This document shows, piece after piece, positions 3,868 through 5,361 of a DNA stretch of 64,000 bases (its first letter is position 1; each line of letters opens with the position of its first letter). The position numbers and the translations under genes are program-made. This DNA comes from Marinobacter algicola DG893 (lineage in GTDB: Bacteria > Pseudomonadota > Gammaproteobacteria > Pseudomonadales > Oleiphilaceae), in the NCBI RefSeq assembly GCF_000170835.1, contig NZ_ABCP01000002.1, forward strand, positions 248,001 through 312,000. Reading direction: 5' to 3'. The notes under the pieces were generated by a model. The model searched no databases. It was not told the DNA's origin and saw only the letters and a list, made by a program, of their open reading frames with translations.

Positions 3868-4338
3868 ATGGCCGCAATTGATGAATTGAAAGACCTTTTG
3901 TCTCAGGATATCCGCCAACTCGAATCCCTGGCGGACGTCCTGCAGCAGGAAAAAGCCTGCCTTTCCACGTCTGATATCCGTAAACTCGAAGCCCTGACTG
4001 GCGAGAAAAACACTTTGCTGGGACAGATTCGTGATCGAGCCAAGCTCAAAATCCGCCTACTGGTGTCGATGGGCTTTCGACCGGAAAACGGAGCCCCCTC
4101 ACGGTTTATTCTTAGCGCCGGCCTGTCAGATGTTTACGACTTATGGCGGGACGCCGACGAACGTCTTAAGACCTGTCACCAGTTGAATAGCAATAACGGG
4201 CGGGTTGTCAGTCACCTGCAGAAGCGCCTTTCACGTCTGACTGATATATTCCGCGGTGTTGCCGGGCACCAGACCCTCTACGGCGCTCAGGGCGAACAAA
4301 AAGCCGTATCACACCGCACCGTTCTGGCGAGCGCCTGA
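3868..4338 (+). CDS. flgN: Flagellar export chaperone FlgN
   Basis: A 156-residue, mostly helical cytoplasmic protein in the FlgN position directly after flgM. FlgN chaperones the hook-filament junction proteins FlgK and FlgL. Visible features are the long amphipathic N-terminal helices (DELKDLLSQDIRQLESLADV and EKNTLLGQIRDRAKLKIRL) typical of the family. The start is an ATG 7 nt after the flgM stop, and the GGGTGAG at the end of flgM serves as ribosome-binding site. FlgN diverges quickly in sequence, so the call rests on both context and helical pattern. Confidence 0.85.
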   Translation: MAAIDELKDLLSQDIRQLESLADVLQQEKACLSTSDIRKLEALTGEKNTLLGQIRDRAKLKIRLLVSMGFRPENGAPSRFILSAGLSDVYDLWRDADERLKTCHQLNSNNGRVVSHLQKRLSRLTDIFRGVAGHQTLYGAQGEQKAVSHRTVLASA

Positions 4339-4348
4339 CCAGGCTCCG

Positions 4349-4370
4349 GGGCTCCGTAAAATCGGAGCCC
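4349..4370. terminator. Hairpin between convergent flgN and the MshEN gene
   Basis: GGGCTCCG-TAAAAT-CGGAGCCC is a perfect 8-bp stem with a 6-nt loop. It lies between the stop codons of flgN (4338) and the convergent gene ending at 4382. No strong T-tract is present on either side. Its position suggests a shared, bidirectional terminator. Confidence 0.5.
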
Positions 4371-4381
4371 AACACATCCCA

Positions 4382-5119
4382 TCAGCGAGTATAGATTGTC
4401 ATCTGGGAATCCGGATGGAAGCGGATATTGTCGAGGGCGATGTTCCCCATGGAAGGTCCCTGGCTGCCGCTGACTCGGATATTGTCCATGCGGATCTGCT
4501 CGATCCTTTCCGGGAAAGCCAGAGTGAGCCCGCCATCGTCACGGACCGCATAACGGGGAACATCATCCCGATAATGCACCCCGGATATCGTCAGATCGGA
4601 ATCCAGGAAGTTCAGCACCGGCACAAAAATGTTCGCTGTCAGCTTGAGGCCTTCGATCACATCCGGATCGACCTGCCCTGAGCCATCATGACTTCCAGTC
4701 ATGGCGGACACATTGGCAATACGCTCCAGTAACGATTGATCACCTTGCCCGGCCACACCGGCCAGCTCGTCGTCATTAAGCGGCGACAAACCGGATCGCT
4801 CGTACAGTTGACCGGTGTCGGTGACGTCACGTGAATCATTCGTGGTGCTGCCGGCGGCAAAACTGACCAGTGGCTGAAATGGCAACACCGCCATGGTGAC
4901 CAGGGCAGCCGCGTTGCGGTAACGTGATTGGTGCTTGAGCACCCGATGGAGCTCACGCTCGGTAATCCAGCCGGACTGTATAAACACCTCGCCGAGCCGC
5001 TGACCGGTCTCATGCTGTAGGCGCAAGCCCTCTTCCAACTGAATTTCGGAAAGGTATCCCCGATTTATCAGCAACCGACCGAGACGGGATTTTTCTTCGA
5101 AGCCCTGACGGATTTTCAA
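4382..5119 (-). CDS. MshEN-domain membrane protein, putative c-di-GMP receptor
   Basis: A 245-residue protein that I cannot assign to a named gene. Residues 12-35 and 41-64 are two copies of the 24-residue MshEN motif, separated by exactly 5 residues. The first has R12-L13-G14, L17, G21, L28, L32 and Q35. The second has R41-L42-G43, F46, G50, L57, L61 and Q64. In known MshEN domains (N-termini of some type II secretion and pilus ATPases) this arrangement binds cyclic-di-GMP. No ATPase domain follows. Residues 70-89 are hydrophobic ([19 protein letters not shown]). Then comes a [12 protein letters not shown] segment (about 107-118) and a beta-rich tail ending MTIYTR. I associate the DDEL-GQ motif with FilA/DUF6160-like surface proteins, from memory only. 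I infer a cytoplasmic c-di-GMP sensor tethered to an exported domain. Confidence 0.7.
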
Positions 5120-5361
5120 GGTATGCCTCCAATAGCTTCACAGTAATTGCCGTACAACCTGGCCCGGTCAGAGTGCATCAATGTCACCGATGCGATAAAA
5201 GGTTAGCTTATAGTCATGAACTCCGCAGGGAATATGCCCGACTTGACAAGTATTATCTGCTAACATCCTGCAACAGACTGGATTCATGGGAACAGTATCG
5301 CAGCAAACATTCCCGGAGCTACCTACTATCCCCTGATACTAACTATGTGAGCCATTATAGA

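Follow-up and report, generated by a model that had tools for sequence, protein, structure and literature searches.

Receptors for the intracellular messenger c-di-GMP act mostly on transcription, enzymes, motors and secretion ATPases. MshEN, the c-di-GMP domain of the ATPases MshE, PilF and PilB, is already known outside ATPases as well, having been noted by Wang et al. (2016) in many non-ATPase proteins, including FrgA and PA3740 of Pseudomonas aeruginosa (PMC5013675). PA3740 is likewise known as a receptor: according to the accounts of Duvel et al. (2016) given in PMC5013675 and PMC8789108, it binds c-di-GMP. The binding motif was mapped to LKKALKKQTNLR, as PMC8789108 relates from Duvel et al., and PMC5013675 places the key residues, LxxxLxxQ, at 55-62. 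PA3740 has been linked to swarming (PMC5013675), had no effect on biofilms in one background, in a paper that calls it a PilZ protein (PMC8335546), and was down in a motABmotCD mutant (PMC3174259) and up in a stringent-response mutant (PMC7122816). As regards export, N-terminal extensions of signal peptides slow export and delay cleavage or inner-membrane release in FhaB and EspP (PMC5422565), a precedent for the mechanism considered below.

The gene and its MshEN domain

The window, as we call the whole 64,000-nucleotide stretch of Marinobacter algicola DG893 DNA analysed here, carries on its reverse strand a gene whose product joins an MshEN domain, a predicted signal sequence and a C-terminal beta domain:

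4382-5119, reverse strand: whole gene, comprising MshEN domain, predicted signal sequence and C-terminal beta domain; 245 codons, TTG start
5126-5130, reverse strand: GGAGG ribosome-binding site, read from the sequence; a GGAG-type site is conserved before the GTG or TTG start in orthologs
5015-5086, reverse strand: MshEN motif 1, residues 12-35, by profile match, motif scan and ortholog alignment
4928-4999, reverse strand: MshEN motif 2, residues 41-64, on the same three grounds

The open reading frame at 4382-5119 is real. A chance motif, a wrong frame and a wrong start were each ruled out because the ribosome-binding site, the start and the frame are conserved; the start codon is mostly GTG among orthologs, with the GGAG-type site kept ahead of it. 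The closest named relative, M. salarius R9SW1, has a protein 95% identical, and full-length relatives were found in 83 of 120 Marinobacter genomes, in 13 of the 13 sampled genera of Marinobacter's bacterial family (Oleiphilaceae) and in further families of the Pseudomonadales, for which the counts are lower bounds, seven candidates having been scored per genome. In the family with the PA3740-type proteins they occur in 42 of 148 genomes, and a profile of the window protein's family aligns with these Pseudomonas-type proteins over positions 8-239 of 246 (E about 1e-40). The MshEN domain is under strong purifying selection (pN/pS about 0.21), and the signal segment (0.17, and 0.08 for R-Y-R alone) and the C-terminal domain (0.25) are constrained too, while the linkers evolve fast (0.56-0.65).

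Residues 12-64 match NCBIfam NF053729, the MshE-related c-di-GMP domain, over positions 1-53 of 53 (E 1.2e-17; 63.4 bits, with a cut-off of 38), and matching sequences in the PDB are MshE, PilF and PilB. The two 24-residue motifs (RLGxxhhxxGhhxxxxLxxxLxxQ), separated by a 5-residue spacer, have all their key positions, and a scan of the window in all six frames gives the strict motif at residues 12-64 alone. The original prediction had placed this pair of motifs here, and the profile score of 63 bits, the motif scan and the 54 aligned orthologs bear it out. A Pfam search, with matches considered up to E 10, did not return MshEN and gave FumaraseC_C and DUF4388 below threshold only; the NCBIfam match nevertheless settles the assignment. 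Phenylalanine at position 6 of the second copy had been described as the only deviation. It is indeed there, but it is hardly an oddity, being found in 34 of the 54 orthologs (leucine in the other 20), and position 11 deviates too, with an aromatic residue in both motifs (Y22 and W51) where the published consensus has L, V or I (PMC5013675). The key c-di-GMP positions are invariant or nearly so across the 54 orthologs, and within the window's bacterial family all 16 nucleotide positions are intact in 77 of 83 proteins.

A full-length model built from 39 sequences has a mean pLDDT of 59, rising to about 69-80 in the MshEN block, where the predicted four-helix MshEN_N fold superposes on MshE with c-di-GMP (5htl) with a Z of 8.4 and 1.3 Å over 56 residues. 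Profile search and structure prediction, both named as checks in the original prediction, agree on residues 12-64, which by profile and model are a complete MshEN domain and a candidate c-di-GMP binder. As had been predicted, no ATPase follows: no ATPase domain was matched in Pfam or NCBIfam in this protein of 245 residues. The genome holds two MshEN genes, one of ATPase size and the other the gene at 4382-5119, as well as eight PilZ matches.

The segment after the second motif and the domains beyond it

The remainder of the protein contains four further features:

4916-4927, reverse strand: S-R-Y-R (residues 65-68), a positive n-region; R66, Y67 and R68 are invariant in 54 orthologs
4856-4915, reverse strand: hydrophobic segment and predicted signal-peptidase site S-F-A|A (residues 69-88), from the ortholog pattern and the lipobox in homologous segments
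4742-4783, reverse strand: conserved 14-residue motif (residues 113-126) after a variable linker, weakly resembling the start of DUF6160-type exported proteins
4385-4663, reverse strand: C-terminal beta domain (residues 153-245), predicted to be extracytosolic, from conservation, the model and cargo-only paralogs

Motif 2, which ends at Q64, directly abuts S-R-Y-R, and a short hydrophobic stretch, P-F-Q-P and S-F-A|A follow. The features of a Sec signal peptide are present, namely a positive n-region, a hydrophobic core and small residues at -3 and -1; all 54 orthologs have alanine at position 88 and S, T or G at position 86, the -1/-3 pattern of signal peptidase. Hydrophobicity (KD 1.7 over 19 residues) would also permit a membrane anchor. 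In the model a single helix spans residues 54-89 and joins MshEN alpha-4 to the signal segment, with low confidence beyond about residue 66. Across 197 collected MshEN open reading frames, ATPase type included, 156 have a hydrophobic 12-mer after motif 2 preceded by a net charge of +1 to +4, a figure that describes the set rather than counting 156 independent events, because many of its members are close orthologs; a small-x-small site is present in 154 of these. MshEN sequences of the ATPase type have no such hydrophobic stretch and a net charge mostly between -1 and +1. In five relatives (L121-L125) the homologous segment carries a lipobox (LAGC, LVGC or LTGC), and a proline stands at Q+16 in lipobox and non-lipobox versions alike. 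Pfam matches, considered up to E 10, did not include an ESPR profile.

The domains that follow the MshEN-signal segment vary among relatives. They include Ig and FN3 (L120, L121, L124), DUF547 (L119) and, in a 475-codon protein in a minus frame of L170, Beta-lactamase2 (E 5.1e-19) after two MshEN copies and a signal-peptide-like segment. A 397-codon protein in a minus frame of L196 has three tandem MshEN-like repeats, a signal-peptide-like segment and an unassigned domain of exported type. Short MshEN-signal-peptide proteins, with a mature part of about 80-120 residues, were seen in L113-L116, L165 and L166; at the mature end hydrophobic residues alternate and the last residue is F, which resembles the beta-signal of outer-membrane proteins. 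Cargo-only paralogs, which lack MshEN and start with an ordinary signal peptide, are found in L093, L095, L096, L106 and L111, often in tandem with the MshEN form. Tandems of an MshEN protein with one or two cargo-only paralogs lie at L093:7588-9770 and around L049:5561-6977.

The second half of the window protein's own cargo domain is modelled with a pLDDT of about 80-90 (71 sequences). Its best match among solved structures has a Z of 3.7 (PARC6), the best Foldseek hit (E 0.03) is an unrelated chain, PHROGs gave no match, and Pfam gave nothing beyond weak DUF6160 (PF19657) matches in relatives, below threshold in 7 of the 71 cargo sequences (best E 5.6e-5), with none in the window protein. 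Residues encoded at 4385-4663 (reverse strand) also point weakly to the pilus-like filament of a cave bacterium, 9xfv (sequence, E 0.37; fold, Z 2.9). This is too weak to claim, and further comparison could not strengthen it.

Sequence comparison establishes the MshEN domain, the signal features, the lipobox homologs, the extracytoplasmic type of the cargos and the conservation. Because of the signal segment, the lipobox relatives and the extracytoplasmic cargos, we infer that MshEN extends a signal sequence at its N-terminal end, on the cytosolic side, and that this sequence directs export of the C-terminal domain. The description of the protein as a stand-alone receptor, which had overlooked the signal sequence at residues 65-88, does not hold, since MshEN is fused to that sequence and to a domain of exported type.

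Relation to PA3740 and genomic neighbourhood

PA3740 is very probably a member of the window protein's family. In the Pseudomonas-type relatives L100 and L133, LAKALKKQTNLR stands at the end of motif 2, exactly where the published PA3740 peptide maps and with a one-residue difference from it, and both loci adjoin rplS-trmD-rimM, PA3742 being rplS; these two points are why we take PA3740 as a member. A degenerate-DNA search of 124 Pseudomonas-type genomes did not return the exact peptide, so its identity rests on the one-residue motif difference and synteny. At the same position the 12 residues of the window protein read differently, with the key L, L and Q kept. Because PA3740 is very probably included, a c-di-GMP receptor of this family is already known. 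The original prediction was therefore right that a conserved, intact MshEN domain is found here outside secretion and pilus ATPases, and was mistaken in calling the receptor one of an undescribed kind as well as stand-alone: a full-length relative has published c-di-GMP binding, and non-ATPase MshEN proteins had been noted (PMC5013675).

Two features frame the gene:

3868-4338, forward strand: flgN, convergent neighbour ending flgA-flgM-flgN, by conserved synteny
5143-5167, reverse strand: conserved non-coding element CCGGGCCAGGTTGTACGGCAATTAC (CCGGGCCRGGTTGTACGG...TCAC), 25 bases, just 5' of the ribosome-binding site, from 16 aligned Marinobacter

In genomes of the window's bacterial family the gene faces flgN, the last gene of cheR-cheV-flgA-flgM-flgN, in convergent orientation, and a peptidyl-prolyl isomerase gene and mnmC lie beyond it. 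These flagellar neighbours suggest a link to motility or attachment, which is not general because the PA3740-type relatives lie elsewhere. The flagellar neighbourhood was accordingly dropped as a defining context, being confined to the window's bacterial family. In Pseudomonas the PilZ receptor gene flgZ sits after flgMN (PMC3913639); in the window's bacterial family this place is taken by the MshEN gene, on the opposite strand (3868-5119 of the window). The 25-base element is strongly conserved across Marinobacter, unlike the non-coding DNA around it. The upstream regions of 16 Marinobacter showed no consistent promoter for sigma-28 or sigma-54, and the element matches neither.

Possible control of export, rival readings and known systems

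We tentatively propose, with somewhat less than even confidence, that a c-di-GMP receptor is built into the export signal and that the C-terminal domain is exported or released under the control of ligand on MshEN. The 53-residue MshEN domain would stay in the cytosol, N-terminal to the Sec signal sequence, and the C-terminal beta domain would cross the inner membrane. c-di-GMP would sit between the two MshEN half-motifs and, because the last MshEN helix (with binding positions L57, L61 and Q64) is predicted to continue into the signal helix, its binding would alter how the signal sequence sits at the membrane. The rate at which the C-terminal domain is exported and cleaved would shift accordingly. 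Most likely the domain would be held at the inner membrane while c-di-GMP is bound, the messenger setting the amount or timing of the exported domain. Topology and cleavage in M. algicola, like the link between ligand and export and the sign of any such effect, are our inference.

The proposal draws on the intact MshEN domain, the signal segment, the lipobox relatives, the extracytoplasmic cargos, the cargo-only paralogs, the predicted helix 54-89 and PA3740. Against it stand the hydrophobicity of the segment, which would also fit an anchor, the low model confidence in helix 66-89 and the degenerate c-di-GMP motifs of the lipobox relatives (L121-L125), in which G10 is replaced by H, N or K in both halves and R1 of motif 2 is lost. 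Because of this degeneracy the N-terminal domain of the lipobox relatives may act otherwise, and ligand control may be confined to the main family. Moreover, a folded domain on the cytosolic side is compatible with an N-in signal sequence, so ligand binding need not affect export. Lipobox MshEN-like proteins were located at L121:5823-6875, L122:5303-6715, L123:5042-5740, L124:4432-5109 and L125:5708-6424.

Chief among the rivals is a bitopic inner-membrane receptor that is left uncleaved, in which the signal segment is an anchor and cytosolic MshEN signals through one span to a periplasmic beta domain, an inside-out arrangement in spirit like LapD. With a KD of 1.7 over 19 residues, the segment is hydrophobic enough for a membrane span by the usual threshold, and MshEN and the beta domain are conserved together as one protein. 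Nevertheless, the hydrophobic core is short and broken by P80, Q82 and P83, A88 is invariant with S, T or G at 86, lipobox versions exist, and a variable linker begins straight after the predicted cleavage site. We regard this rival as rather unlikely. It is less probable still that a cleaved MshEN-signal stub acts on a partner as a membrane-tethered c-di-GMP sensor or sink, the exported domain having a separate job. R-Y-R and the signal helix equal MshEN in conservation and are kept with it while cargos vary, but remnants of signal peptides are usually degraded quickly, and the stub would be without a known partner. That the MshEN fold is a docking or targeting domain (for example, for a secretion or pilus platform) rather than a nucleotide sensor would suit the many signal-fused relatives that keep it despite degenerate nucleotide motifs, and is very improbable given that 77 of 83 proteins in the window's bacterial family keep all 16 nucleotide positions and that PA3740 is reported to bind c-di-GMP in the accounts cited above (PMC5013675, PMC8789108).

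Should controlled export prove true, the messenger would control the export of a single protein directly, without a separate machine; the fusion of sensor and export signal suggests an intracellular messenger controlling a protein placed outside the cell. Controlled export would also account for the design of PA3740, an orphan among the c-di-GMP-binding proteins of P. aeruginosa. Since the fusion recurs with Ig, FN3, DUF547, beta-lactamase-like and short beta cargos, the idea can be tested in more than one system; that the ligand-gated signal peptide is a general module, which bacteria attach to unrelated extracytoplasmic domains to gate export or release protein by protein, we consider doubtful.

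The architecture appears undescribed in the literature searched: the open literature held no mention of MshEN fused to signal peptides, nor was a signal-peptide reading of PA3740 found there. PA3740-type Pseudomonas relatives are homologous to the window protein over the full length (MshEN, signal segment, DxEMxxVxAQG and beta domain), with about 33-35% identity, and lie beside rplS-trmD-rimM instead of flgN. The likeness to DUF6160 exported proteins is weak, on the cargo side and confined to 7 of 71 relatives, the window's own cargo having no match. The N-terminal domains of MshE, PilF and PilB (T2SSE_N, GSPII) are the same 53-residue c-di-GMP domain in sequence and predicted fold, whereas the window protein has no ATPase or MshEN_C and carries a signal sequence and an exported-type domain instead. 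NfrB of E. coli (PRK11234), to which profile matches here are weak, also has an MshEN-type domain outside ATPases and in an envelope process (PMC8669469), but it is a glycosyltransferase whose MshEN-type domain is not in a signal peptide. The ESPR of autotransporters and TpsA proteins likewise extends a Sec signal peptide at its cytosolic N-terminal end (PMC5422565), with no homology by the tests run; it is short and without a ligand domain, whereas the extension in the window protein is a predicted folded MshEN domain.
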